Positions 26,819-51,812 of a stretch of 64,000 nt of DNA are shown piece after piece. The notes under the pieces are model-generated. The model worked only from the letters and a program-made list of their open reading frames with translations. It did no database searches and had not been told where the DNA came from. This DNA is from Dendrophyllia cribrosa (Eukaryota > Cnidaria > Anthozoa > Scleractinia > Dendrophylliidae), in contig JAJLRJ010000003.1 of assembly GCA_024195265.1 (NCBI GenBank), forward strand, positions 29,562,158-29,626,157, given 5' to 3'. Numbering within the stretch: the stretch's first letter is position 1; each line of letters opens with the position of its first letter. The translations under genes were made by a program, and so were the position numbers.

Positions 26819-26912
26819 TCTCAATCCTCCGTAAGCAAAAAGATGGCGCCACGCAGTGCATTGTGGTTAAATGTACCAAAATAAGGTTAATTAACAGTCG
26901 TAAACAAACAAG

Positions 26913-26951
26913 ATGGCGGTCAGCCGCAGAGTCGACAGAAGTGGGCTCTGA
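26913..26951 (+). promoter_or_regulatory. Upstream ORF overlapping the transposase start (TGATG)
   Basis: The ATG inside a YY1-like CAAGATGGCGG opens a 12-codon frame whose TGA shares its A with the transposase ATG (CTCTGATGCCC). Scanning ribosomes would meet this first, so it may limit transposase output or feed it by reinitiation. The arrangement is seen; the regulatory role is inferred. Confidence 0.5.
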
Positions 26952-28444
26952 TGCCCTTTAGCTGTGCTGTTGCAGGCTGCGGCCATAAAAGTTGGAAAAA
27001 TAATACTCTGAAATATTATTCTTTCCTAAAAGAAGAAAAATTAAGGCGAAAATGGATAAGAGCCCTGAGTTTACGACGCAAGAATTACAAGTGGAAATCG
27101 AGCGACCGAGTATGTAGTGCCCATTTTCCTGGAGGACACAAATATGGAACAAATAATATACCCTCAATTTTTCCAAGAAGGGATTTAAAAAGTGGTAATA
27201 TTGTGTGGCCGGTAGACATTTCAAGTTTGCTGCGGGATAACACATGTCCAACCGGGGAAGACAAAAATAAATCCACCTCAACAGCGAGCGTCGATAGCGT
27301 GAACATTACCACCAAGACAGTTTCAGTAAACGCTGAGAATTTCCCACCGAAGAGTAAATCAGATAATGACAATGTGGCGGTGCTGCAGGGCTTGGATGTG
27401 AAAGAAAACCAAGACTGTACATGCAGGCATGAAATTAACAGACTGTTGGAAAGGATCAAGTCACTTGAGGAGCAACGAAAGATTGAAAGATTTGGCATAA
27501 ATAGGTTCATGCTTTCCGATTCTGATATCAGGTTTTACACCGGCTTGCCTGATTATAAAACATTTCTTGCCTTATACAATTTTCTGAAACCACGGTCGGG
27601 TTTTCAATTAAATTACTATAATGGGTACACAAATGTCACGAAACATCCATCATATGTGGTATCCAGAGGAAGACCTCGTAATCTCGTCGAGATTGATGAG
27701 TTATTTTTAACCATGAATAGACTGAGGCTAGGCTTACTAGAGAAAGACCTTGCTGATCGATTTAACACAGATCAAACGGAAGTATCTAAGATTTTTTCTA
27801 CCTGGGTTGACCGAATGCATGATTGCCTGGGACAGTTAAGTTTCATAACGGACCGTGACACTATGAAGAAGTTTTTGCCCAGCTGTTTTAAGCCAGAACA
27901 CGAGGACGTGTACCTCATTATTGACTGCACTGAGCTATTCATTGAGAAATCTTCACAAGTTATTCAGCAGAGTGCAACATGGTCAGAGTATAAGGGCCAT
28001 AATACTGGTAAAGCTCTAATTGGCTTGTCTCCAATTATGCTTCCAGCATTTGTTTCTGAGGTGTATCCTGGAAGCATATCAGATGAAGAGATTCTGTCTG
28101 AAAGTGGCATTTTGGCATTGGCCCAAAGAGGGGACAGATGGTTGGCTGACAAAGGATTTATTGTCCAACATATCCTGGATGATTATGGAGTAAGAGTTGA
28201 CACACCAGTGAAACTGGAAGGAAAGAAGCAGTTTACTCAAGAAGAAGATGTGCATAACAGGAAGAACTCTCAGGTCAGAGTACATGTTGAACGAGCAATA
28301 AGAAGGATCAAGGTTTTTAGAATTCTTAAAGGAAATATTCCTATTCGTTATGGACACCTTCTGTCAAAACTATGGAAAGTATGTTGCTGGCTGACTGCAT
28401 TCCTACCACCATTAATAAATGGCGAAGAAGAACATGAGGAGTAA
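26951..28444 (+). CDS. THAP-domain DDE transposase, ISL2EU/Harbinger-related
   Basis: This 497-residue uninterrupted frame catalyses excision and insertion of the surrounding transposon. Residues 1-76 form a THAP zinc finger (C5, C10, C55, H58, with W35), a DNA-binding domain expected to recognise the TIRs. A polar linker (about 80-155) and a short coiled-coil-like segment (161-181) follow. A helix-turn-helix typical of this transposase class lies at about 250-290 (LEKDLADRFNTDQTEVSKIF). The DDE_4-type catalytic domain has D325 (IIDCTE), D378 (GSISDEE) and E447 (VHVERAI), with WLADKGF at 397-403. All three acidic residues are present and there are no frameshifts, so the enzyme may be active. 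The start at 26951 is the first ATG followed directly by the THAP motif. It is convergent with the nuclease gene. Confidence 0.92.
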   Translation: MPFSCAVAGCGHKSWKNNTLKYYSFLKEEKLRRKWIRALSLRRKNYKWKSSDRVCSAHFPGGHKYGTNNIPSIFPRRDLKSGNIVWPVDISSLLRDNTCPTGEDKNKSTSTASVDSVNITTKTVSVNAENFPPKSKSDNDNVAVLQGLDVKENQDCTCRHEINRLLERIKSLEEQRKIERFGINRFMLSDSDIRFYTGLPDYKTFLALYNFLKPRSGFQLNYYNGYTNVTKHPSYVVSRGRPRNLVEIDELFLTMNRLRLGLLEKDLADRFNTDQTEVSKIFSTWVDRMHDCLGQLSFITDRDTMKKFLPSCFKPEHEDVYLIIDCTELFIEKSSQVIQQSATWSEYKGHNTGKALIGLSPIMLPAFVSEVYPGSISDEEILSESGILALAQRGDRWLADKGFIVQHILDDYGVRVDTPVKLEGKKQFTQEEDVHNRKNSQVRVHVERAIRRIKVFRILKGNIPIRYGHLLSKLWKVCCWLTAFLPPLINGEEEHEE

Positions 28445-28696
28445 CATGTTTCACATGCATGAAGTACTTACTGTACATTCAATTTTCTGCTCATAATAAC
28501 AATGACAATAATGATTTTAAACACATTGAATGTTTAGGTGACCATATCATTTCTCGTGAATGAAATTCTTGCTTGCCTTCTGTAAGAACTGCGTATTATT
28601 TAGGGTTCCAGTTAATTTTTCAATGCAGGGTGTCAGTTAAGGAATTCCAAAGGGTCAGTTGCCACTGTTCCCACAAAATCAAATGTTATAATTAAC

Positions 28697-28881
28697 AAAT
28701 CGAATGTGGTTTAGCGTTGTCTGTACTCTTATCTAAAATGGGTATGCGTCATCACAGTGGTCAAAATTTGTTAGGGACTCATGAGGCTGCGCCTTGTGAG
28801 TCCACAACAAATTTTGACCACTGTGATGACGCGTACTCGTTTTCAACAAGAGTACAGACAACGCTAAACCACATTCGATTT
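28697..28881. mobile_element. Nested palindromic MITE inside the ISL2EU-type element
   Basis: The arms begin AAATCGAATGTGGTTTAGCG and include CATCACAGTGGTCAAAATTTGTT. The right arm carries the reverse complement. Related sequence continues to about 29045 (TCTGGACTCTTATTGACAAC, GCCAATCAGATTGCA). A second member with the same words is at 48915-49185 inside the 13-kb element. Confidence 0.75.
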
Positions 28882-29737
28882 GTTTTTTACCACAAAATCA
28901 ACTGAAAAAGAAAATGTTTTTTTTAGAGCGCGAGCTGAAAAAGGCATTGCACGACACATTGACGTGAGCAGCGTTGTCTGGACTCTTATTGACAACGGCA
29001 AGTTAGCCAATCAGATTGCAAGACTAGTAGCAATTGTGGTAAAAAAAATTCTATTTGTCAGGTCATGTAGCTGACCAATGTCAGGTTTTTGACCTGAGAC
29101 CCCTCACTTATCTGGAACCCTGAATTTATTATGCCTACAAAAATATTCTGATAAACAGTGTAACCCTAATGACAATATTTGCTGCCAGTCTTTTTGTATA
29201 TTCTGAAATACATTTTGTAATGCAAGCCATTATGTGGAAATCAGGGTCTATAATAGGCAGCATGATCAGAAAATTAAGCCCAAACAGCGTTGCGAACACA
29301 CTGACCACAATTTTGAGGCTATGATCATGGCAATATGTTAAGTTATCTTCTATCTGTACATTCAAAGGTGATACATTTGTGACTCAGATATCCTGAAAAT
29401 TTTAGGAAACAGAATTTTGAAATGCACATTTCAAATACTGTGTTCAATGAAATTGTTCACAAGTGAAATAATAATTAATTTAATCATAAACATAACAACC
29501 AGTGTTGTGCTCTGGAAATAAATATTTATTTACATCTACTTATTTATTGTTAACAAATTTAATATATATTTAAGAGTAAGTGAAGCATTGGGCCAAAAAT
29601 CAATAATTTATGCATTTTAAAATATATTTAATATCAAACTGTATTTTTAAATAGCTAATTTTCAAACAAAGTTTTTAAAAATCTTTGAAAATAAAGGCTA
29701 GTTTAACTTAAAGCTGTCTTTTAGATTTATGAAAACA
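28882..29737. other. AT-rich gap between the two ISL2EU genes
   Basis: This is the space between the convergent gene ends and should hold both 3' UTRs. No further gene. The MITE family described at 28697 accounts for sequence up to about 29045. Confidence 0.5.
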
Positions 29738-31709
29738 TCAAACGAAGACCCGCGGTTGACCATCAGATGACAGAAAAATAACTTCTATGCATGATCGTGC
29801 AAGTTCATTTGCCCACTGCCGTAAGGGTAGTAAGTTTTCAAAACTGGGCACTTGATTTGACAGTGCTTGAAGCTTCTGGGCCAAGATATTATCTTGAGAT
29901 ATAATGTCTATTTTACTTTTGCTTAAGATTGCATTGCAGCATACTTTAAAAGCATTAATGAAATTATTGTTCTTTCTGATTAAAAAATACTTTGACTTCT
30001 TACTCTCTGGAACATAGGATTGGAGAATACAAACATTGGCTTGTGCACATTCTTCCTGCAACTGTATTTGGACAACATGAGCCCCAGTTACTGAAGACAG
30101 CGGTTCCGAATTACCTTCTGAACGGGTCTTAATTTCTAACAGACACAGTCCAGAAAGGCTAACTTGTTTTCCAGTTTTAATGTCTACAAGTGTCTTGCAT
30201 GTTTCTCCCAGAAATGTTCTATCCGGGGAAGCTCCAAAAAATTGGTCACTTTCCAAAATAAAAAGTCCACATTTTTCCACAACAGCAGCACTCTCGCTTG
30301 CAAAGCATTTTGAAGCTTCATCTTCAAATATGATACCTCTGTGAAAGTTCCTGAAATTTTTTGAGGCTTCTGCTTTCTTATTTCCGATGCAGTCCCAAGT
30401 TTCTTGAAACTCCCTCTTTCCTTGTAGACCAATCACAGCAGGTGCCTTTGATGATGTTATCTTTCCGATTCTCTTACTGAACCACTCAGAACTTCTTTGA
30501 GCAACTTCAGTAACATTTTCTTTATTTTGACACACTTGAATTGAGTCAGAAATAGCAAAACAACTCTTATCTACAGATACATTTTCTTTCTCTTTGACAA
30601 AGTTAAGTTTTAAAATTTCAGATACAACTTTAGGGCACTTGGATGAAGCTAAGTCATCACATAGCTTGGTTACTCGTTCATTATCAACTGCTGGCTCTCC
30701 GTTCGGTCTTGATGTGTAACCACAACTCACCTCCACTGGCAATTTCCGTTTTCTTCCTCCACTTTTGTCTCGCTGTACCAGATGCTTTTCAAACACAATT
30801 TCTTGCAGTGGCATTCGTTTCATGAGCTCTTTCTCTGGATCTTGTGAGGCTCTTATGGATGGTATTCCCCACTGTTGACGGACTTGTGTGCAGCTGATTG
30901 ACTTGGGAAGCTCAACACTGCATGACATGGTGGCCTCTACCAGTTTGTACGCCAAAGCAGCAACATGCTTGCAAAATCCTCGTTTCCCAGCAGCACACGA
31001 GTGGTCTTTTGCAGCTAGAATTTTTCCAGATGTCTTATCGAAAATTATTGAACACGCATAAAGCCCTTCACCAGATGAAATACCTTTGGCTTGTTTCATA
31101 GCGGGACGTGTGTAGCCTTCAAGTACAAACATGTTGTTTTGGTTCGGCAAAAGGTTGATTCGCATGGGTTTCCCGGACGTTTCGAACTTTTTTGTCTTGG
31201 AGAAGGCATATCCTTCCGTTACATGCTTTTCATCGGAAGTCAGCTCAAAATACTTCTCGACAACCGAGTGGGTAACAGTCGGAATGGCTGCCAGCGAAGA
31301 CGTCCAGCCGTTCTGGGGAATATCGCCATCGAGTATTTTCTCTAAAACTCGACGCTCATTACCGAGTGTTTCTTTCCTCTTTTGCTCGTAGAATTTCCCG
31401 TCTGGATCCTTTAGAAATTTCTTATCCCAACCATTTTCAATATATAACTGGACTCTAGTAAGGCAGAAATAAAAACCAACGCATCTAATTAAAAAATAAT
31501 TATAAGATCGATGAAAAAACAGCACTCACGCGATCTACGACTTACTTGTATTTCAGCTCTTTTAAATTGAGCTGACTTAAATTTTGGCATCCTCGACACT
31601 TTAACCATCTTATGGCTTCAGATTTGGTGAGCTTTTCGATTTCTTTTGCTAACTTGGCCCCTGGAATTTCGTCTTCAGAGAGATGGACATTTGACACGAA
31701 AGCCGCCAT
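29738..31709 (-). CDS. SAP-like/SWIM/YqaJ nuclease of the ISL2EU-type element (two exons)
   Basis: Exon 1 runs from an ATG at 31709 to 31546 (next bases GTAAGTCG). A 91-bp intron follows. Exon 2 starts at 31454 after TTACTAG and ends at 29738. The exons total 1,881 nt, exactly 627 codons including the stop. Exon 1 plus the start of exon 2 forms a SAP-like segment (KSEAIRWLKCRGCQNLSQLN). A SWIM-type zinc motif lies at about residues 189-218 (C208, C216, H218). The C-terminal third is a YqaJ/lambda-exonuclease-type domain: WFSKRIGKITSSK (379-391), FEDEA (about 431-435), GASPD (462-466) and LLEIKT (493-498), whose D466, E495 and K497 should be catalytic. In the family this protein accompanies the transposase and probably processes DNA ends or aids repair; its exact role is not established. 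Confidence 0.88.
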
Positions 31710-31990: not shown

Positions 31991-33996
31991 TTAATGAATA
32001 TTTGCGTGTCCTTTTTCGATATCAAAGTCAATGTCAAACAATTCTAAATTGACTCTCCTAGAAACTCGCGAACCTCTTAGGCAAAGTAATGCTGATCTCA
32101 ACAGTGCAAAGGACACTCTCGCCCTGATCCATGACATGGTAGTCGCATAGCTTTCCCCTTTCTTTATAGCAACTAGCTCAGCAAGCCTACTATGATATCG
32201 TTTACATTCCATCGCCATTCCACCTGTCTAATTGGCAAAACGGTAAGCCAACTGGAAGCACCTTTCTGAGTGGCAAGGTCCACAGCTCTCAAAGTTTTTC
32301 CAGACATCGAGCCTTTCACCTCGTCAAATTTATCCTTCAGATACTGATTCTTCTTCATTTCGCGCATCTCACGTTGTGCAGCGTGTATTTTATTTTCATC
32401 TGGTGGCTCATGCACCTGTGATTTTATTTGTTGGGCTAGTGGACCAGAGATATTAGTTGATGCTACATACTCTAAGGCTGCTACTTGACTCGGATTTGTT
32501 AGGCCCATGCCTCCCATTCTCACTGGCAGCGCCAGCAGCTCACGTTCAGCTTGTGTACAGTTGTGTCCTGTAATGGACGGTATGAGGACATCAGCTATTG
32601 AGCGCTCCAGAGGTGCAAGTAGATCTTCTATATCAGGCAGAGTTCTCAGGAAGTATGTCCAGCGGTGTTTTAATCCAAATGTGAACGCTGCGTAGCAAGC
32701 CTGGGGCTGCGACAAGGCAAACTCTGCCAATTTGGTCACTTGTCCCACCCATTCTTCGACTTTACCGTTGACATACTGCTCAAGATAGGATCTGGAGCCG
32801 AGCGCGGCACCCAGGTGCTTCCTTCCTTCTGTAGTGATGCTGATTTCTGTTTCTTCAAAGATGCTCCTAGCAGTCTCCTCCTTATCGGGTTTTACGACAA
32901 GCCAATATTTTCCAGCATTAGGATAGTATCCTAAGTCCGGCCCAGCCACAATCAACTCGTCCCACCACACCCTTATGTCCTGTATCGAACCACATCCTGT
33001 CGCATCATCAGCAAACCAGCATTGTTTGGCTTGACTCACTGATTGTAAACGAGAGAGCGGCTGTAAACTGAGGGCATACATGCACATTGCTAAAGGATCG
33101 CCTTGCGTAGTGCCCTCCGTAGAAATACGCTCTTTACCTCCGGTTACAAATAGTCGTGCTGGTGCTCGATAAGTATTGATTACAAATGTAGCTAATGCTG
33201 GACAAAGAACCCTGATGTTATGAAGGGCGGCAGCTCGATTTAATGAGTTGAAGGCGTTTGAGGCATCCACTAGCAGCACTGTATCAGTTTCGTCCTGCTG
33301 GAAAAAGCGTACGTGCACTGCTGCCTCACTCCCGGATTTGTGTCCAGCGCAAACCTGAAGAGAGCCATTCGATTCTAATATATCTTGTTTCGTCGCCTTT
33401 GTCACGCACTTTCCAATAATTCTTCTGATTACTTCCCCCACTCCTATTGGTCGAACCTTACCATTACCCTTATCCAGCGGGATAAGACGACTTGCAAGAA
33501 TCGGTTCAATAGTCGCGGGATCAATGTATTCTGTGCACAACCGCCGGATCAGAGTTGCAAGAGCGTCGCACAAATTAGAGGCAGATTTCTTGAATGACTT
33601 GCTAGCAAGGATCCTATGAAAACCATTAGCGTCTACATTTGAGGGACCTCCAGCGCCTTTAGTTCTTAGTGCTGCTTCTCTAATCATCTCACCAGTAATC
33701 TCATTATAGGCTGACTCATGAACCCCCTTAACTGGACCAAAGAGCAGCAATCCCAGCTTAGCTGGTTGGGCTTTTGGATGTTTGTCATGTAATTGCTTCA
33801 TGACATCATCAGTTAGGGACAATACACCTCCACAGCCATCATCAGTTAGGTATCGTAGGGCGGAGTTTATTTGCCCTTCTATGATGAGCTTCGCAAATAT
33901 CTTTGCTTTGTGTGGAGGATCATTTTTCTGGTGGGATTTAACTAGGCGTTTTTGGATTGTTCGTCCTTCATGTAGCAGCTCAGCTATTTTATATTA
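31991..33996 (-). pseudogene. Reverse transcriptase gene, internally deleted and 5'-truncated
   Basis: The minus strand is open from about 33996, where sequence meets a TTA microsatellite, through a full reverse transcriptase domain. Visible motifs are [45 protein letters not shown] and the catalytic [11 protein letters not shown]. After [11 protein letters not shown] (about 32230) the frame breaks. The next bases encode, one frame over, the family's C-terminal block [20 protein letters not shown], ending at 31991. Intact relatives as I remember them have roughly 100-200 residues with a Cys-rich segment between these blocks, so an internal deletion with frameshift is inferred. Proteins like this are frequent in cnidarian genomes; I cannot assign a clade. 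An ATG start is not visible because the 5' end is missing. Confidence 0.75.
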
Positions 33997-36605: not shown

Positions 36606-37550
36606 TTAAATACCTAAATTAAGAGTAACGTCCAACTGATTTTTTAAATTATACCTACAATATAAATCTTTTGAACTATCGGAGGCCCAACGACCATGAT
36701 GCCTAATTTTACAGTCAGACACATTATTATTAGCCGCTGCAGAAGCACCCCCTATGCGAAAACTGTGTAGATTGATGTAAGTAGTGTCAACGCCAGCTAA
36801 TTTCAGTTTTGACAAAATAACTTCTCTGCAACGGGTTTGAGAAAGAGACTGATCCCCTCGACATTTATAAATCCCCTTAGATTTGTAGTACTGCATCCTA
36901 GGGAAAATAAAATCGTCGCGATGCTCGTCAACCTGACACATCGCCTTGAATCTAACAAGACATTGATAAGGACATGTTGATCTCCCCGATTTTGCCACAA
37001 TAATAGTCTTTCCACGACCAGACTGATCGGTTTTACTTTGGGGAATGTAAAGAGAAAAATAACAATCGAAAAATGTGACAAAGGACCATTTCAAAGCAAT
37101 GATTTCGTCGAAACGAAGGAAAGCAGCAAAAGCCAATAAGGCCATAGCAACGTCCCTCAAGTCTAAAAGAGAAGCATTTTCATGGCCAAATGCAGCGACT
37201 AAAAGTTTAAAATCGTCAACTGTAACAGGTTCCCTGATCCTTTTAAGACCTTTGGAAGCCGATCGGCAGGCACCGTCGAAAACGTGAGGAACAAAAGACG
37301 AATCACACGGATTTCTGACCCCGTAAAGGTCATGAAAATGTTTAAAGGCGTAGAAAGCGTTACGAATAGTGCTTTGGGTTTTCCCACACTGAACCAGATG
37401 AACCAGGTAAATGGCTACGTAAATATCCTCTGCTGGGAAAAATGTTACTTCACCGAAGGATGCGGCCCAGCTTTTCCACTTTTGAAAGGCGTACATGTAG
37501 GAACGAGACGTTGAAGGGGCTCTGGAATTGTGTAAGGTTCGTTGGACCAA
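36606..37550 (-). CDS. DIRS tyrosine recombinase
   Basis: This 314-residue frame replaces the integrase of LTR elements by cutting and rejoining DNA through a tyrosine. The N-terminal SAM-like region (about 5-100, SRSYMYAFQKWKSW) precedes the catalytic domain. R146 (FLRFDE), K173 (QSKTDQ), H262 and R265 (LHSFRIGGAS), H285 (HHGRW) and Y297 or Y300 (KDLYCRY) form the expected R-K-H-R-H-Y set. No ATG opens the frame: it starts at a TTG, so the true start is upstream, spliced or lost. It is the last gene of the DIRS element, next to repeat B. Unlike gag and pol it has no visible frameshift in its core. The 480 bp between it and the RNase H remnant is non-coding. Confidence 0.85.
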   Translation of the reverse strand: MVQRTLHNSRAPSTSRSYMYAFQKWKSWAASFGEVTFFPAEDIYVAIYLVHLVQCGKTQSTIRNAFYAFKHFHDLYGVRNPCDSSFVPHVFDGACRSASKGLKRIREPVTVDDFKLLVAAFGHENASLLDLRDVAMALLAFAAFLRFDEIIALKWSFVTFFDCYFSLYIPQSKTDQSGRGKTIIVAKSGRSTCPYQCLVRFKAMCQVDEHRDDFIFPRMQYYKSKGIYKCRGDQSLSQTRCREVILSKLKLAGVDTTYINLHSFRIGGASAAANNNVSDCKIRHHGRWASDSSKDLYCRYNLKNQLDVTLNLGI

Positions 37551-38029
37551 CGTAACCCATATTCCTTAGACGGGGATCCCTGAGATCCGGAATTTTTTGT
37601 TGTGGACCATAAACCCAACCTGGAAAAACCCAAGAAAGGAATGAAACAAAAAGAAAAAGAAAAACTCGCGTAAATATGCAAAATAATACAAATGCAATAA
37701 TTTATTGATTTTAACGAAGGAAGATGCAATAGTAAACAAGCATAACTGAAGAAATATATGCATAACAAACCGATGAAATACTGATGTCACACTATAAAAT
37801 ACAATGAAAACCATACTGTAGGCATAAATCCAGCGTTACCAAAGAAATGTTGTCATTACTGGCACAGGGGTTACCAAACGTGGAATTTGGTAAAGTAACA
37901 CCTTGGAAACGGAATGTAAACATGCCATACTGTGGATATATCAATAAAGGAACAATCCTTGTCAAAACTTAAAACCGCAATAAAGGGACACTTTAATAAA
38001 CCCTGCCATACTGTGGGCAAATAGGCTAA

Positions 38030-38643: not shown

Positions 38644-38860
38644 CATTAACGCGTTCCAAAATAAAATGGGTTTTTCCAAACTTGCTATTTTCCGTGGACT
38701 ACATGGATATTTCTCGGAGCCTGTTCTGTGTTCATTGTGGATCTTATATTCCCAACAACAACCAAACTAGTTCAGCAAAGAATGTCTTTATTTAACTAAC
38801 TAAATTTTACAGTCCGTGTGAAACGTGAATAACAGTTATGTATGTGCTGAACCAAAGCTG

Positions 38861-39742
38861 CAGAAATTCTGCACTTGGCAAATTAGTGAATTCAATTAGG
38901 ATGCAAAAATTCTGCATCTTGATCAATAGTTAAATATACTCAAATTCACTGCACTGAGCTAAGATGCAGAAATTCTGCGTTTTGTAAAATGAAGAAAAAT
39001 CAACCAATATCCACTGCACTGAGCTAAGACGCAGAAATTATGCATTTGGTAAAATGACTAAAAATCAGCCAATATCCACTGCACTGAGCTAAGATGCAGA
39101 AATTCTGCGTTTGGTAAAATGAATAAAAATCAGCCAAAATCCACTGCACTGAGCTAGGATGCAGAAATTCTGCATCTGGTAAAATGAATAAAAATCAGCC
39201 AAAATCCACTGCACTGAGCTGAGATGCAGAAATTCTGCGTTTGGTAAAATGAATAAAAATCAGCCAAAATCCACTGCACTGAGCTAAGATGCAGAAATTC
39301 TGCATTTGGTAAAATGAATAAAAATCAGCCAAAATCCACTGCACTGAGCTAGGATGCAGAAATTCTGCATCTGGTAAAATGAATAAAAATCAGCCAAAAT
39401 CCACTGCACTGAGCTGAGATGCAGAAATTCTGCGTTTGGTAAAATGAATAAAAATCAGCCAAAATCCACTGCACTGAGCTAGGATGCAGAAATTCTGCAT
39501 TTGGTAAAATGAATAAAAATCAGCCAAAATCCACTGCACTGAGCTGAGATGCAGAAATTCTGCGTTTGGTAAAATGAATAAAAATCAGCCAAAATCCACT
39601 GCACTGAGCTAGGATGCAGAAATTCTGCATTTGGTAAAATGAATAAAAATCAGCCAAAAGCCACTGCACTGAGCTAAGATGCAGAAATTATGCATTAGGT
39701 AAAATGAATAAGAAATCAGCCAAAAGCCACTGCACAAAACCA
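38861..39742. repeat. Left subterminal array, 65-bp palindrome-bearing units
   Basis: Twelve units start at 38963 and repeat every 65 bp (39028, 39093 and so on to 39678), with two diverged units before them. Each contains GATGCAGAAATTCTGC, a dyad centred on AATT, then GGTAAAATGAATAAAAATCA and CCACTGCACTGAGCT. Variants alternate GCGTTTGG with GCATCTGG, hinting at a higher-order 130- or 195-bp pattern. These are likely transposase-binding or structural repeats. Confidence 0.93.
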
Positions 39743-39936
39743 GCTACAGTAATTCACTTCTAATTCTAAAGGATTCAGAAATTCAGATGCCCAGTCAATG
39801 AACTGAACAAAACTGGCTATTCACATCTAATTCTAAAAGGATTCAGAATTTCTAATCCCCATGTCACTTCCATGTAACTGAACAAAAAAGGCTATTCTTA
39901 AAAACTTAAAGGATTCAGAATTTCTGACCTCATCAC
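39743..39936. repeat. Degenerate AAAGGATTCAGAATTTCT repeats
   Basis: Three or four loose copies of AAAGGATTCAGAAtTTCT with AACTGAACAAAA continue past the left array, and another lies at about 40230 beyond the nested TTAA element. They look like an older, decayed array of the 13-kb element. Confidence 0.5.
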
Positions 39937-40133
39937 TTAACCCTTTCACTCCCAGAGTCAATTATGGAGACTGTAGTGCAGTCCTAACTATTGAGTCTTT
40001 ACTTTTGCATGTACTTTTGTATCAGTACTTTTGCATGGTACAGTTACCATTTGTTTTTCAATATTTTACAACACAAAATTTGGGATTTTTATTGAATTTT
40101 GATATTTGACACTTTTGGGAGTTAAAGAGTTGA
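39937..40133. mobile_element. Degraded TTAA element nested in the 13-kb element
   Basis: The left end TTAACCCTTTCACTCCCA is clear. The right end TGGGAGTTAAAGAGTTGA is a mutated inverted copy. The repeat flanking it on both sides (AAAGGATTCAGAA) supports insertion into a pre-existing array. PiggyBac-like TTAA/CCC termini. Confidence 0.55.
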
Positions 40134-40928
40134 CTGAACAAAACCATGAGTGGAATTTGTGATCCTTTCAGTTTGATATCAACTTAAGCAGTTGAAAAAC
40201 AACCCGACAAAATTCAGGCTTCTAATTAATTCTGAAAAGGGATTCAGAATTTTAATTTTTGTTGCCCCCATCACTTAAACGAACAAGACTAATAGGAAGG
40301 TCCAGCCTGTTTCTGGATGTTTTCTTTGTATTGTGTTTTTCCTCTGATGTTCACAAGGAGATGCCACTGGTCGTACTTCTTTTGGCCTGGTCAACATATA
40401 TGTACTGTTATACATGTACATAAATGAATGATCTCATTTGTAGTTCTGCTAGTGATTCCATTTCCTGAAAATCAGATATAGTATTGACCTTTAAATTACT
40501 CAAATTTAGCATTTATTAATCAATAAAATTAATATTATATGTATAATATTTCATGACATTAAGTAGTGCAAAAACCCAAGGCTTCCCCAGCTCAACTGCC
40601 TTTTACAGAAACTCTCTATTTAACAACCTTGTTCCACCTACATGTACATGTAGGTCAACATACACAAATGTAACTTGAATTTTGTTTAATTTCTAAATGG
40701 TGCTCACCTTTACAATGTGCATTTGTGGGGGTACAGGTGTAGCTAAATCTGTAAACATTCAAAAAGAACTTTGGCTGTGTTCCAGAATAGAGCCAAAAAT
40801 CTGCAAAACAATAACATCATATACAACTTAGCTCAATGAAAATTTCTCTGCAAGCCCAAGTGCATGTAAATTCTGGCTTCTTTCAGACAACAAGACAGGT
40901 CTAATAGCCCTTACTAATAACACTAATA
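40134..40928. other. Non-coding body of the 13-kb element
   Basis: No ORF of interest. Three TACATGTA octamers lie at 40411, 40640 and 40646. Confidence 0.4.
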
Positions 40929-40936
40929 CATAAGGG

Positions 40937-41113
40937 CAGGGCTGTCATTAAAGGCCGGGGGCTGGGGATTTCCCCCGGCTTCTATGAGCATGAACCCCGG
41001 CTACTTTCATAGGAAACAAAAGAAAAATAAAACCCAAAGAACTTCCCTGCTGTTGAATTCCCAGCCTACTAATTGCATATACCTGGCAACTTGAAATCTT
41101 AGTGACAGCCCTG
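40937..41113. mobile_element. hAT-like MITE with perfect 8-bp target duplication
   Basis: The ends are CAGGGCTGTCATTAA and, reversed from the right, CAGGGCTGTCACTAA. CATAAGGG occurs immediately on both sides (40929-40936 and 41114-41121). CAGGG tips and 8-bp duplications are diagnostic of hAT elements. It is 177 bp and non-coding. Confidence 0.9.
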
Positions 41114-41121
41114 CATAAGGG

Positions 41122-41710
41122 TAATAAAAGAAAGCAAACAAGCTATTGACATTGATTTTATTGATACACAACATTTAGACAAAAATCTCAGAGCAGTTGG
41201 CAATAGACATCTGTCACTCTTATCTTACATGGGAGGAGAAAGGAAACCAATTTCATTTTTCACTGCTTGTTGATTTCTTTTTGGGCCTGAAAACTATATT
41301 ACAGATATTGCCCTCATCACTTTGCAGTTTGGTTTTTCGCTTGAAATTTAACATGGAATTCACTCGTCAGGCAGTGAATTTTTCTTTGATACAAGAAAGG
41401 TGTTGGGTTACAAGTTTCGGTTTTGAAAATAATAGGAAAGCTCTGCTTTGGACAGCATCTTTGTTTGTTTCTAAAGCAACCGGGGGACCGTTTCATCTCA
41501 GTGTATCATCAAAATTTCTTTCAATTAGGTCAGTACAGTATGCTTGTTCTCATTAACTTATTTGTTTGATTTAGACAATTGCTTTTTCTTAGCATGAAAT
41601 ATTGTTTTCTTTCTTTGACATTCATTCACAAGGCCAAAAAAGCTTTAGCTTTTAACACAAACTAGGCATAACATTTGATTTATCTATTTAGGAGAATATC
41701 TCAGTTATAT
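41122..41710. other. Non-coding body of the 13-kb element
   Basis: A 119-codon frame at 41197-41556 starts at TTG and has no recognisable motif; no splice sites support it. Confidence 0.35.
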
Positions 41711-41717
41711 AGTAGGG

Positions 41718-41990
41718 CATAGTTAATAGAACAAACTGGTTATGAAGCTCGTCAAATTTCAAAAAGAGTGTACAAAGCTGCTTTGTTTTATGTTGAACGA
41801 ACCGTGACCCTGCACATTGTTTTGTTTAACCTGTAAGCCCAAATGTTTCTACTGGTCAGTTGCTCATATGCATTTCAATACCTTTTGTGTTTTGTGCAGG
41901 GTCAAGGCAAACGAACAAAAGAAATGGAGAACAAAAACATATAACAAAGGACTGACTGAGTTTCATAACCAGTTTGTTCTATTAACTATG
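41718..41990. mobile_element. hAT-like MITE with AGTAGGG duplication
   Basis: CATAGTTAATAGAACAAACT at the left is matched by its reverse complement at the right; TIRs are about 36 bp. AGTAGGG flanks both sides (41711-41717 and 41991-41997). An inner inverted pair (TGACCCTGCAC/GTGCAGGGTCA) is present. It is 273 bp and non-coding. Confidence 0.8.
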
Positions 41991-42049
41991 AGTAGGGGAT
42001 TAAATGTCTTAATATTGGAGAGGAGTCTACATGTAAATTTCGAGTTCCA

Positions 42050-45213
<3,164 letters not shown>

Positions 45214-45235
45214 AGGCTATTTGTACCAATAATGC

Positions 45236-45379
45236 AAATGGAGCGATTTTAGAATACCCGTCCACTTATTTACATATCCCCAAACGTTTTAAAGAACGAA
45301 GCATATGAAAACAAAAGAACCATTCTTATTCAATGAGATGCAAATAAGTGGACGGGTATTCTACAGTTTAGCCCATTTG
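45236..45379. mobile_element. Inverted-repeat MITE, copy 1
   Basis: CAAATGG...TAGAATACCCGTCCACTTATT at the left is inverted at the right (AATAAGTGGACGGGTATTCTA...CCATTTG). A diverged second copy is at 47665-47776. Confidence 0.7.
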
Positions 45380-46146
45380 ACTGAACCTTCTTTTGCTGTG
45401 AGTGACAACACGTGTTTGAATGTTTGCTGTAGTGGTCTTCGCTTTTCTTAAAAACTCTTGAAAATTAATCACTTTACTTACATGAAACAACACTGCAAAG
45501 TTTCTTCTGGCTTCTAACGCTCCAAAAATGTAAAATACATTGCATTTATTTCCCGAAGCGACCATAAGTTCTTCGAGTTGACCGTTAAACGTTTCAACAG
45601 CCCGCCATGTTGGTTGTTGAGCAAGCTAGTTCCCAGGGAAGCCGTGAGTTCGGCACATGCGTATTGCGAGTTCTAACGTCACGTGGGGCTTTTGAGCCAA
45701 TGGGAAAGTGCGAGAATTTCAGTTTGACTTTCACGCGGGCAGAGTTCAATTTACGTTCTAACGTTTATGGCAAGAGGAGTTATACATGTAAAGAAGATGA
45801 ATTTTCTTGTGGCTTCCTTTTCTCCATGTGAAGTACTATTCCAGTCAAGTTCAAGGACGTTGTATGAGGAAAAGGTAAGCATTTATAGGGAAGCTTTGTA
45901 GGCGGTTTATAGCAGTGTTTGCACGAAGCACAGCCATGAGGTTTCTTTGCTTGTAAGCTTATACATGTATTTTCATTTTCGTAAGTTAGTCTTGAGAAAA
46001 CTTTGTCTTTTTACAAACATAGAGCTTAAAAGTTTAATATCTGAAGTTAGAAGTTGCGTGGGATTCTGGCAGGCTTCCTGAGAGGAATAGGGCACCACAG
46101 ATCAAGTAGCACGATAACATCTGTTCGCTTTCATGTTAGTTAAAAC
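45380..46146. other. CpG-containing stretch with possible divergent exon
   Basis: On the minus strand, an open segment before a donor-like CATGTAAGTAAAG (about 45480) includes GQLEELMVASGNKCNVFYIF and GALEARRNFAVLFH. On the plus strand, GCCATGTTGG near 45603 opens a 74-codon frame. The sequence around 45590-45700 is CpG-richer than its surroundings, as in a bidirectional promoter. This could be a captured host exon or chance. Confidence 0.3.
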
Positions 46147-46838
46147 TTAAGGTATTCGCATGTATTATCGGACACATTTACATCATCGCTTTTATCAAAG
46201 CGCTTGACAGACGAACAACCAAATTCTTCTTCCACCAAAAGCTTTATAGAGTTGTCTCGATAGTTTCATTCCAAAATTGTCTAGAAAGCGATATATCTCC
46301 GACAAAACTGATTACAAAATTATCCATGCCTTGATAGATTATCGGACACGCTGATTGATTATCGGACATGCAAATCCTATTGAAAATTTCCGCCAACAAT
46401 GTGCGTACGCAAGTCTTTATCACATCAGTGTATAGGCCGTCCGATCATCGATCACTGGCATACCCGAAAAGAAGTACCCCTAAACAGCGGTAAACTGCTC
46501 AGAAACGGTAGGTACATCATGTATGGGAAACAAAATGGAGGGGAAGTTTCCCACTCGATGGATTTCAGAACAATCTTTGCAGTTTTGCGTTCAACTTTTG
46601 GAGTTTTTTTCCTTGCGTAAGGGAAAAATGATTGGAAAATCAGAGCGCCATTATCGCTGCAGGTACGAGGAACAGTTTTATTTCCAAGATATTCAGATTT
46701 ACGACACAAGACTCGGTAGTTGAACAGATTAAACTTTATTCAGCTGATAGCACAGGCATTCCAGCATCTTTCTTTTTATTTTTGTGGGATTTTGGATATA
46801 TTTTCGTTAGCGTCCGATAATACATGCGAATACCTTAA
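46147..46838. mobile_element. TTAA-flanked MITE
   Basis: TTAAGGTATTCGCATGTATT at the left and its reverse complement at the right, both continuing ATCGGAC. Internal copies of ATTATCGGACA lie near 46340 and 46365. Total 692 bp. Frames inside show no transposase. Confidence 0.8.
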
Positions 46839-46845
46839 GTTATGT

Positions 46846-47547
46846 CAGGGCGTAACATGTCGATAATTTCGAAAGTCGATAAAAATCGATCGTTGTCGAT
46901 TTAATTCGATACTAATTAATCGACAGATATCGGACATCGATAAAAATCGATCATAAGATTTCTTGTGATTTTGATTTTGATCGATTTTCTATGTTACAAT
47001 TCGATTTTGATCGATTTTAATCGACAAGTATCAAAATATGAAGATGTATGGCAGGAGGCAAGACTGTACTGCAGTCGAACGCGGGCTAATGAAGCAACAA
47101 CAAACCACTTGGTTGCTCAGTTTTTTTTTTAACTTTATTGTCATACAGATTTACTTTAGAGCTGTTTACACTTATATAAAATGCTCTTCAAGCTACATGT
47201 ATTGATTATTGGTCTGGTTAATTTCGCAGCTGATTAAAAATCTTGTTAAAATCTTGTGATTATCGACTTTTATGAGGCGGTACGCACCTCTCGGAACGCC
47301 TCACAAGATTGGCTAAGAAAACAATAGAACAAACAACAGAACAATGGACCCTAGACCTAAAAACAATACAAGTGCGTGATAACCAGGTCCAATGAAATTA
47401 GAGGTTCTGAAGAGGTGCGTGGCTACTGACTTTTATCGACAAATTAAACTTGTGGATTTAAAATTATCGACAAATATCAAGTACTATCAACTTATCGACT
47501 ACATGTACGTTTTCGATGATCCATTTTGATTGACATGTTACACCCTG
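46846..47547. mobile_element. hAT-like non-autonomous element rich in ATCGAT words
   Basis: It begins CAGGGCGTAACATGTC and ends with the inverted GACATGTTACACCCTG. GTTATGT occurs directly on both sides, consistent with a hAT duplication of 7-8 bp. The left and right thirds contain many TCGATAAAAATCGAT and CGATTTTGATCGATTTT repeats. It lies 8 bp from the TTAA element to its left. Confidence 0.8.
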
Positions 47548-47664
47548 GTTATGTTGACCACTTTTAAACACCCTTCTTCAGCAGGGTTGATATATACATG
47601 TAAGAATGACCCACTCATTTTTTTTTTTGTATTTTAATACAAAATTGCAATTTAAGAGCTTGGA

Positions 47665-47776
47665 GAGATTTCAGAATACCCAGCAACTTATTTACATATT
47701 GCTAAACAGTAAATGTTTAAAAGGATCCATTGTTATTCAAAATAGGTGGCAGGGTATTCTTTAGTTTAGCCTTATT
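47665..47776. mobile_element. Inverted-repeat MITE, copy 2
   Basis: CAGAATACCCAGCAACTTATT at the left and AATAGGTGGCAGGGTATTCT at the right match the family at 45236-45379, with more substitutions. Confidence 0.6.
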
Positions 47777-48059
47777 TACCAGTTAATCGTATCAAAAACA
47801 AAATTCTCGATTGTGATTGGTCATCCGCCTGCCTATTTCTTACGTATTTACAACTTTTTGTAATTGGATAGCTGTAATTGGACACCTATGTTGCATGTGC
47901 GTCAATCAGTTGCACTTAAATGGGTTCCTTTTGCTGTTTTCCTCTTACTTTCCAACTGATAAAAAATATCCTGCATGTTTTGAGTGCAAAAAAGTCCACA
48001 GGGTTTTAATTTCAAATTTTGTTATTGATGCGATTAATTAATAATTGAACTTAGTATGG

Positions 48060-48156
48060 TTCAATTCAGGGGTAATCGTGCTTGCAATTTCAAATCGTCC
48101 TTGTGCTACCTGCTTGTCCGATTTGAAATTACTTGCCCGGTTACTTCCTGAATTGT
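48060..48156. repeat. Imperfect 97-bp hairpin repeat
   Basis: TCAATTCAGGGGTAATCGTG plus ATTTCAAATCG at the left, inverted at the right as CGATTTGAAATTACTTGCCC and TCCTGAATTG. Confidence 0.6.
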
Positions 48157-48914
48157 ACTCCACTCAGTCCAATTACTAGTTGCTCACATGCAACAATTTG
48201 TTGCAGTTTTTGGTTTGTATTTTTAACCAAAAGAACATTGTTTTAAAACAGATTTGTTGTAATTAAATTTCACAGTGAGCCGACCCGACCCGAGCTGAGA
48301 TGCAGAACAGCTGCACCATTCAGTTTTTGTACACAGATCGTGAAATTTTTTAGTTATTGTTCTTAGAGAATAGCACTGCATACTATTACTAAAAATAGAT
48401 CAACCCCCACATGTATGCAACTCGGACAAAGTTTGCTGTCAGCTAAAAGGCTTCGTATGAGCGGGATGTGTTTTGGATCTGAAAAATCAGTGAAATCAGC
48501 AGTAAACATGATTTGAACATTTTTAGGGCTTCGAATATAATAAATACAAGGAAATGTTACATCAGGGAGCGAAAAACTGATTCTGTAATGTAGATTTTGG
48601 CTTCAAATTTAATAAATTATGTGACGAGGCTGCACAGTGAAATCCGATCATCGGACTTCCAATCTATAAGCTCTCATGCGATAAGGCTGAAAACATTTCA
48701 CGACTTGTACCCAAGATGTGTGCATGAAAAATATGCATGGATACATGTAGGTTCCAAATGATCCAGAATATACATGTAGTGTATGTATTTGATACAAATA
48801 CTGTTTATCGACCCCCATTCATACAAGCAAAGCAGAACAAAAGGTCTTAAAGATGACAACACAAATTTGTTTTTGAACAAAAATCCTGTCTTTGAGTGCA
48901 TGTATATTTAGCAA

Positions 48915-49185
48915 ATTTCCACCGGTTTTCCGTGGTGTGGACTCTTATTTACCACGATTTACATCGTCACATGGTCAAAATTTGCTGCTGACTCACTCGT
49001 GAGTCCACACCACGGAAGAAAGGTGGAAATCTGTTTTTTCACCACAATATTTAGAAAAAAAGACAAGGAAAAATCGAAGTTTCGTTACAAAATGTGATGC
49101 ATTGCGTAATGTTAGTGTCAGCACTGTTGTCTGCACTCTCATTTACCACCCGCATTGACCAATCAGATTGCAATTGTCTGAGTCA
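48915..49185. mobile_element. Palindromic MITE, second member of the 28697 family
   Basis: ATTTCCACC...CCGTGGTGTGGACTC is inverted at 49003-49030. The interior shares ATGGTCAAAATTTG and GTGAGTCCAC with 28697-28881. The downstream TGTTGTCTGCACTCTCATT and ACCAATCAGATTGCAA match the tail beyond that element. Confidence 0.65.
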
Positions 49186-49382
49186 CAATGGGGGGTCAAA
49201 AGTATTTCATCTCAAGTCATTAGTGTGCAGTGCTACATGTATTACTCTAGATAGGCTTTTGTTTAAATGAATTTTAAAATAAGTGTAAGGTGCAGTGGAT
49301 TTTAGACAATGTGCCCTATAAAAATGTAATTATTATTATTATTATTACTAATACATGAATTAATTTAGCAGCAAATAATTGT

Positions 49383-50160
49383 TAAGGTGGCTGAACACAG
49401 TTTGTACACTCTTCAATTTCAGCTGCTTACAGTATGTGAGTCAGTGCATGCAAAGTTTTGAGAAAAACAAACGTGGTGCCTATTCAGCAATCATTTTATT
49501 TTGCTCAGCGTGGATCGCGAAAATGTTGTTTTTCGTCTTAAAATCAAACAAGTTGTTGTTTGTAAAAATGTTCGTTAAATCAATAGATAATCTACGTATA
49601 GAACCATTGAAGAAATACACTGCCTTTTTGGTCATTTTTGTCTTTGGATCGAGAACCCAGTCAAATGCAACGCATGCGCAGTTGAGCACAAAATTGTGAC
49701 TGGATGTTTTAGTGACTTTCATTGGAAATGTGCTGATTTCTACAGAACAACTCATTAGATTTTCAAGAAATTTGGCACAACCTACCACCAAAGGAGATTT
49801 TTACAAAATGCAAACATATCAAACAACAAATTACAGAATATGCCTCTGTCAAAATTACATGAGACCAGTGTTAACATGTGAATATTTTTACGCGTTTACT
49901 GGAGACAAATGATGGACAAAATCTAATGATTAGATTTCCTGAAAATAAACGAAACCAAATATTGCGGGCTGATTTATTATCCATCATGTTGCCATGGTAA
50001 CACCCTAAGAGCTCAACAAAAATTTAAAAATATAAAGCTTGTTGCTTAATCTTATGCCTCGCCAATTTTGGGTACCCAGACATTAGTGGTTTTAAAATGA
50101 TAATAGATGATGCATACATGTACAGCTGTAGGTACAGTAAAACTGTGTTCAGCCACCTTA
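49383..50160. mobile_element. 778-bp TIR element with AAGGTGGCTGAACACAG ends
   Basis: TAAGGTGGCTGAACACAGTTT at the left is the reverse complement of the right end. The outer TA may be a target duplication (Tc1/mariner-like) but the terminal bases are ambiguous. Frames inside (49379-49699, 49480-49791) have no recognisable domain. Confidence 0.75.
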
Positions 50161-50343
50161 CATGTAAGTACACTGCATGTCATTGACTACAGTGCAAAAT
50201 TTATGTATCCTTTCAATTATGGGCATGTGCCCTAGTGACATAATTTATGCATCATTCATTTGTTGTAGATACAGTAGTAAATTAAGTGGAAAATAAGGTC
50301 GTGCAGAATTTTTGCATCCACCTTTTTCAAGCCACTTGGTTGA
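50161..50343. repeat. Diverged start of the right array
   Basis: ATTTATGCATCATTCATTTG and TTGTAGATACAGTAG here are a degraded 109-bp unit. Confidence 0.55.
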
Positions 50344-51462
50344 GATGCAGAATTTCTGCATCATTCATGTGTTATAGATAAAGTAGTGAATTAAGCGGAA
50401 AATTAGGTCGTGCAGGATTTTTGCATCCACCTTTTTCAAGCCTCTTGGTTGAGATGCAGAATTTCTGCATCATTCATGTGTTGTAGATGCAGTGGTGAAT
50501 TAAGCGGAAAATAAGATCGTGCAGAATTTTTGCATCCACCTTTTTCAAGTCACTTGGTTGAGATGCAGAATTTCTGCATCATTTATTTGTTGTTGATACA
50601 GTAGTGAATTAAACGGAAAATTAGGTCGTGCAGAATTTTTGCATTCACCTTTTTCAGGCCACTTGGTTGAGATGCAGAATTTCTGCATCATTCGTTTGTT
50701 GTAGATACAGTAGTGAATTAAGCGGAAAATAAGGTCTTGCAGAATTTTTGCATCCACCTTTTTCAAGCCACTTGGTTGAGATGCAGAATTTCTGCATCAT
50801 TCATTTGTTGTAGATACAGTAGTGAATTAAGCGGAAAATAAGGTCGTGCAGAATTTTTGCATCCACCTTCTTTAAGTCACTTGGTTGAGATGCAGAATTT
50901 CTGCATCATTCATTTGTTGTAGATACAGTAGTGAATTAAGCGGAAAATTAGGTCGTGCAGTTTTTTTGCATCCACCTTTATCAGGTCACTTGGTTGAGAT
51001 GCAGAATTTCTGCATCATGTATTTGTTGTAGAAACAGTAGTGAATTAAGCGGAAAATTAGGTCGTGCAGAATTTTTGCATCCACCTTTTTCAAGCCACTT
51101 GGTTGAGATGCAGAATTTCTGCATCATGTATTTGTTGTAGATACAGTAGTGAATTAAGCGGAAAATAAGGTCGTGCAGAATTTTTGCATCCACCTTCTTC
51201 AAGTCACTTGGTTGAGATGCAGAATTTCTGCATCATGTATTTGTTGTAGATACAGTAGTGAATTAAGCGGAAAATTAGGTCGTGCAGAATTTTTGCATCC
51301 ACCTTTATCAAGTCACTTGGTTGAGATGCAGAATTTCTGCATCATTCATTTGTTGTAGATACAGTAGTGAGTTAAGCGGAAAGAAAGATTGTGCAGAATT
51401 TTTGCATCCACCTTTTTCAAGCCACTTCGTTGAGATGCAGAATTTCTGCATCATCCATTTCT
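50344..51462. repeat. Right subterminal array, 109-bp palindrome-bearing units
   Basis: GATGCAGAATTTCTGCATC recurs at 50344, 50453, 50562, 50671, 50780, 50889, 50998, 51107, 51216, 51325 and 51434, exactly every 109 bp. Each unit also carries an imperfect second dyad (GTGCAGAATTTTTGCATCC), then TTTTTCAAGCCACTTGGTTG, TTGTAGATACAGTAGTG and TTAAGCGGAAAAT. The palindromic core is shared with the 65-bp array at the other end, although the rest of the unit differs. Repetitive frames across the array are not genes. Confidence 0.95.
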
Positions 51463-51775
51463 GTTGGAGTTACTCTGCTGTAGTTTATCTGCAGTAGTTA
51501 GGCCTTTGGATAAGAATACCTTTTCCATACTGCAATTTTACAGGCCATTTTCTGTCTCCGTCTGTTACCCGTAATTTTTAACTGTAGATTTTAAGTGTGA
51601 AATTCTCTTCCGAATAAATATGGTTTATTACAACAACTGTTTAAAATTGTGATTTCGTCGTGTTTACAGGGTATGGCTCCAACTTATGGTATTCCTGCAG
51701 TGAAGTATTTTAATTTTCTGGCGGAAATCGCGTTTTATACCGTGCTAAATTGGGCTTTATGACTGAATTTTGGAT
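51463..51775. other. Right end of the 13-kb element between array and TIR
   Basis: No gene. This segment corresponds in position to 38681-38860 at the other end but shows no sequence similarity to it beyond the TIR. Confidence 0.45.
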
Positions 51776-51812
51776 TTTGGAAAAACCCATTTTATTTTGG
51801 AACGCGTTCATT

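Follow-up and report, generated by a model that had tools for sequence, protein, structure and literature searches.

The window analysed here is a stretch of 64,000 nucleotides from the scleractinian coral Dendrophyllia cribrosa (contig JAJLRJ010000003.1, positions 29,562,158 to 29,626,157). At window positions 38648-51808 it holds an element of 13,161 bp with perfect inverted ends of 33 bp and the tetranucleotide CATT on each side. We conclude with high confidence that this unit is a large non-autonomous cut-and-paste DNA transposon, probably moved in trans.

Insertion into a DIRS-type frame

When the flanks of the element are rejoined with a single CATT, one open frame runs through FTDNHNAAIITNKGS on the minus strand; judged by eye from this restored frame, the two flanks are the separated parts of a DIRS-type RNase H. 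We searched the whole genome (627 Mb in 22 contigs) with 251 nt of the joined flanks containing one CATT and obtained ten matches. Two of them are the window locus itself, where the matching pieces (query 1-128 and 125-251) overlap by 4 nt, namely CATT. The junction is spanned at five other DIRS loci (C4:15.89, C12:38.73, C1:54.40, C12:2.79 and C17:19.47 Mb), four of which align over the full query (1-251) with 74-84% identity and the fifth over 29-251 with 88%, small gaps occurring in some; these loci are known from the alignment and not from their letters, and a single CATT was not seen directly there. The remaining matches are two pieces ~0.6 kb apart at C20:36.56 Mb and one covering query 1-83 only. 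Because five other loci cross the junction and the window pieces overlap by CATT, the insertion at the DIRS site is clean, as a first-pass annotation of this DNA had proposed from the restored frame and the 4-bp duplication. The features of the element are collected in Table 1.

Table 1. Positions of the element, its borders and its internal features in the window
Feature	Position	Strand	Description
Left target duplication, CATT	38644..38647	.	4 bp
Whole element	38648..51808	.	13,161 bp; subgroup A copy including nested insertions
Left terminal inverted repeat (TIR)	38648..38680	+	33 bp
Left subterminal array	38942..39735	.	65-bp unit x 12.2, palindrome GATGCAGAAATTCTGCATC
Segment like a miniature inverted-repeat transposable element (MITE)	40913..41113	.	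ends GGGCTGTCATTAAAG / CTTAGTGACAGCCC, read by eye
Nested insertion	41718..41990	.	~0.27 kb; also in C12:3.47, missing from C1:55.9 and C18:29.3
Nested 3.2-kb unit	42047..45216	.	~155-bp inverted ends (90%), CT microsatellite
Interior block kept in A, B and C	45395..46142	+	promoter-like; splice-donor-like GAAAAG/GTAAGC, read by eye
Nested insertion	46149..46853	.	perfect inverted ends of 30 bp; C18:29.3 has the empty site
Nested insertion	47273..47428	.	~155 bp; by flank test missing from C1:55.9 and C12:3.47, by alignment from C18:29.3
Short interior block	48173..48264	.	91-96% identity between A, B and C
Right subterminal array	50242..51460	.	109-bp unit x 11.2; palindrome ~2 per unit (one perfect, one degenerate)
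Right TIR	51776..51808	-	33 bp
Right target duplication, CATT	51809..51812	.	4 bp

A Phage_integrase-type recombinase lies at 36609-37565, and an open reading frame for reverse transcriptase (RVT_1, 30.2 bits, cut-off 29.6) lies near the DIRS element on the minus strand (32176-33993). At 26891-31525, domain matches identify a THAP + DDE_Tnp_4 gene convergent with a YqaJ gene, an arrangement that we take to be ISL2EU-like.

A dispersed family with paired ends

The ends of the element recur throughout the genome. The TIR, searched as a 30-mer with up to three mismatches, occurs at 64 places (29 forward and 35 reverse; 0 for the control), and a relaxed 23-base tip occurs at 181 (86 forward and 95 reverse), compared with 0 and 0 for the reversed pattern that served as its control; 100 of these 181 matches were listed individually. 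The family comprises at least three tip subgroups: A (AACGCGTTCCAAAATAAAATGGG, the window copy), B (AACGTGTTCCAAACTAAAATGTG) and C (AACGCGTTCCAAACTAAAATGTG). Among the 30-mer matches, 21 pairs of A/B ends converge over distances of up to 36 kb, and a 24-mer search for subgroup C found 55 ends and 23 convergent pairs. Viral contigs and prokaryote contigs gave 0 matches each to the tip patterns.

Identical 4-bp flanks were present in 17 of 19 A/B pairs and in all ten C pairs, that is, in 27 of the 29 pairs tested, with the ends of C18_7, C18_26 and 13 C pairs lying outside the test. The 27 perfect duplications represent 22 different sequences, AT-rich and without a fixed motif. Paired inverted tips in many copies and a target duplication of constant length are the marks of a TIR transposon, and because 181 tip matches stand against a control of 0 and 27 of 29 pairs carry 4-bp duplications, this is a real family of many copies and not a single locus. 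A chance inverted repeat or a misjoined assembly is very unlikely given the 64 TIR matches (control 0) and the duplications in 17 of 19 and 10 of 10 pairs; the uninterrupted sites elsewhere also argue against it, no evidence in its favour was found, and we give an artefact of either kind next to no weight.

Outside the arrays, the window copy differs from three A copies by 0.97% over 5,167, 1.9% over 6,120 and 2.1% over 5,664 aligned bases, and this divergence of 1-2% between A copies indicates that the family has been active fairly recently.

The palindrome TGCAGAAWTTCTGCA is common to the subterminal arrays of A and B copies; the units, which measure 69 bp in one B copy, otherwise resemble each other poorly (~65% in pairwise matches). 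In the half C copy that we read, the unit measures 68 bp and contains the related TTCAGAAATTCTGA. Palindrome sites were counted in 14 copies with up to two mismatches allowed. Every copy has 7-15 sites at the left end as read, and 12 have at least eight at the right end, the exceptions being C1_15 (0) and C12_30 (1). The interior holds none in 13 copies and one in C12_30, and the window outside the element holds 0. The palindrome is a putative binding site for a transposase dimer, and the first 8 tip bases, AACGCGTT, are themselves a palindrome. The expectations of the first-pass annotation for a genuine family, namely ends that pair genome-wide with 4-bp duplications and subterminal arrays common to relatives, were thus borne out; the two outcomes it had named as fatal, ends that never pair with such duplications and a misjoin, were not what we found.

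The native size, however, is not 13 kb, a point on which the first-pass annotation, which had not noticed the nested insertions, is corrected here. Sister copies give a core of ~7-9 kb (~7.1 kb in B, and 6.9 kb for the compact A copy C18_29), and the remainder consists of nested insertions. We compared the window copy with the A copies C1_55 (C1:55.9 Mb) and C18_29 (C18:29.3 Mb) and with C12_3.47, which was read over its interior: four extra blocks stand out in the window copy (41720-41991, 42055-45210, 46149-46853 and 47273-47428), nested DNA that adds up to ~4.3 kb and of which each block is lacking in at least one of these sisters. The insertion at 41718-41990 is also present in C12_3.47, which lies on a different contig and has the duplication TGGT rather than CATT, so that, most simply, the 0.27-kb passenger was already in place when a copy moved, and at least this much travelled with its host. 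The 3.2-kb block at 42047-45216, whose site is empty in C18:29.3 and C12:3.47 by flank test and in C1:55.9 by alignment, may have travelled with the element or may have entered later. The site of the 46149-46853 insertion is occupied by other sequence in C1:55.9 and C12:3.47. The MITE-like segment is kept in all three A copies tested and skipped in the more distant relatives that were matched. An older A-like copy on C22, with the duplication TTGA, spans 35.7 kb and has a Maverick-like element (C22:26.42-26.44 Mb) inside.

Gene content of the copies

We read 14 copies whole (the window copy and 13 others) and five in part (C18_26, C18_7, C22, C12_3.47 and half of the C copy C5). None of these 19 shows a transposase of its own, as expected of a non-autonomous TIR transposon, with 22 of the 23 C pairs unread inside. 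Six-frame Pfam scans found nothing above cut-off in the four copies to which they were applied (the window copy, C18_29, the B copy C5_18 and the half C copy); the other copies were covered by open-frame lists and scans of selected frames. A sub-threshold match to SAM_NCD1 (20.1 bits against a cut-off of 24.3) lies within the left array, and the six Rfam matches over the element are all under the gathering score. Open frames of 125-233 aa occur in C12_14, C4_5, C1_55 and C12_3.47, and the five scanned had no Pfam match above cut-off, a 154-aa frame of C4_5 being outside the scan. The other half of C5, which was not read, aligns with the non-coding core of subgroup A over ~1.4 of its 4.4 kb.

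Large genes occur in four copies, within inserted elements, and a longer relative with a transposase of its own was not present among the copies read, in which longer coding copies hold other elements. The two open reading frames of C3_26 (551 and 318 aa) were candidates for the transposase of the family and are rejected, since they lie in a nested element of 5,310 bp with its own tips (CATAACCAGAAATCC) and its own duplication (TGCC), and the corresponding site in C3_31 is empty. At C18:26.07 Mb (C18_26), zf-AD and DUF6589 exons and, on the opposite strand, a RecQ-like helicase gene belong to a nested element of 10,644 bp with perfect 82-bp inverted ends and the 9-bp duplication ACTTTTCAA. The large gene of the B copy C18_7 (C18:7.01 Mb) has OTU, DUF6570, Helitron_like_N, PIF1 and endonuclease domains and is that of a Helitron, and those of C22 are from a Maverick/Polinton-like element with inverted ends of ~460 bp inside the older copy; the exact borders of both were outside the test. 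A fragment in C1_15 is retroelement-like (zf-RVT).

If the element were autonomous instead, its interior islands could be short exons of a diverged transposase beyond the reach of Pfam. Between A and B, islands of 26-127 bp are 88-100% identical (selected at ≥85%), compared with 72% over the outer left 150 bp and 80% over the outer right 76 bp, and the promoter-like block with its conserved splice-donor-like site is common to A, B and C22. Nevertheless, the A and B consensus cores have no open frame longer than 125 aa, the donor exon varies by indels and its candidate start codon is absent in B. The six-frame scans were also empty, although a transposase outside known families could escape them. 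We therefore regard autonomy as improbable.

The orientation of the interior relative to the ends is flipped between A and B. An interior block is present twice, inverted, at eight loci (among the 40 of 3,745 candidates that were scored), as if an ancestor had been symmetrical. Three of these loci lie between C tips (C2:22.12, C4:23.44 and C22:31.32), whereas none of the tip matches listed belongs to the remaining five.

That no transposase is visible in the element and that it is mobilised in trans had both been proposed in the first-pass annotation. The former agrees with our scans, and the latter is the best inference; the cores of the copies scanned are without a recognisable protein. A transposase produced elsewhere would bind the palindrome arrays, bring the ends together and cut at the AACGCGTT tips, and the unit would then be joined to target DNA opened by a staggered cut of 4 bp. 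An autonomous ancestor may have left the conserved interior block behind as a relic of its promoter and first exon.

Several points weigh against this explanation as a whole. The mobilising enzyme itself was not found, and the C pairs unread inside include a 32-kb one at C20:38398800-38431261 and a 14.8-kb one at C16:47781556-47796374 with the duplication GCGG; for two A pairs at C19 and for the C20 pair, reading covered the ends only. The duplication is absent in C3_31 (TGAC/AGTC) and in the 34-kb C20 pair (TTTT/TCCT), which perhaps combines ends from two different elements. In C1_15 one array is missing by our scoring, and the array may not be essential or this copy may be dead.

Relation to known transposons

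Tips and arrays are insufficient to place the family in a superfamily, as had been stated at the outset, although the tips and duplications argue against Sola2, CACTA/Transib-type elements, piggyBac and Mutator. Academ elements make duplications of 3-4 bp, and the 4 bp observed here are of that size, which is common to other superfamilies and not diagnostic. The duplication length also agrees with Ginger1; no match to rve, the integrase type of Ginger1, was found in the six-frame Pfam scans, the scanned copies being non-coding. En/Spm (CACTA) elements likewise have arrays of subterminal repeats at each end, to which a protein encoded by the element binds, but differ from the window family in their CACTA tips and 3-bp duplications.

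Members of CMCT (CACTA/Mirage/Chapaev/Transib) make duplications of 2-5 bp (PMC12730594), which includes the 4 bp seen here, and the family might be one of them, moved by a RAG1-fold transposase of the same genome. Such a transposase, of RAG1/Transib fold and with a 4-bp duplication, is present inside one copy, as identified by a fold search that covered the protein of the nested C3_26 element only and does not exclude families missing from it. However, this gene belongs to the nested element with CATAACCAGAAATCC tips, and CMCT ends are mostly 5'-CA..TG-3' (PMC12730594), whereas those of the family are AA..TT (AACG..CGTT). Moreover, of 91 matches to the RAG1-fold protein (79 of 350 candidates scored), one, at C3:26073171, lies inside an AACG pair, as judged by eye among the tip matches listed. 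We consider CMCT membership even less probable than autonomy.

Coral CMITEs are also non-coding elements with inverted repeats, and between their families the interior is better conserved than the TIRs, a feature that parts of the A/B interior show here, but they are ~100 bp long with TTAA duplications and piggyBac-like tips (PMC2872659). The window family, in contrast, has cores of 7-9 kb, 4-bp duplications of variable sequence, tips in AACG and arrays at its ends; none of the 27 duplications is TTAA. Muta1 and its Mutator-like relatives in Aedes share subterminal tandem repeats beside a palindromic terminal motif and have non-autonomous derivatives, but their duplications are 8-9 bp and their repeats of 9-15 bp lie inside TIRs of ~150 bp (PMC5225508), compared with array units of 65-109 bp over ~1 kb here. 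Sola2 elements share 4-bp duplications, short TIRs and a length of several kb, but their duplications are AT-rich, such as AWWT (PMC3627910), a pattern that 4 of our 27 fit. No title or abstract opening in the literature searched describes the family, and none of the occurrences of the string AACGCGTTCC concerns a transposon by the same parts of the record; this coverage is partial and not proof of absence.

A broader proposition, which we rate as unlikely, is that the family represents a superfamily of DNA transposons in animals that has yet to be described, marked by its tips, 4-bp duplication and palindrome-array ends, whose large gene-free members persist because their arrays capture transposase better than the autonomous parent and which could therefore carry passengers. 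The features that make the family unusual are its gene-free 7-9 kb core, its palindrome arrays and its passengers. Many non-autonomous inverted-repeat elements are short, whereas the gene-free core that is moved here measures ~7-9 kb, and the nested insertion found at two loci would be a passenger spreading on the ends of another element. The conserved array palindrome offers a direct bait for the transposase, whose identity would settle the superfamily.

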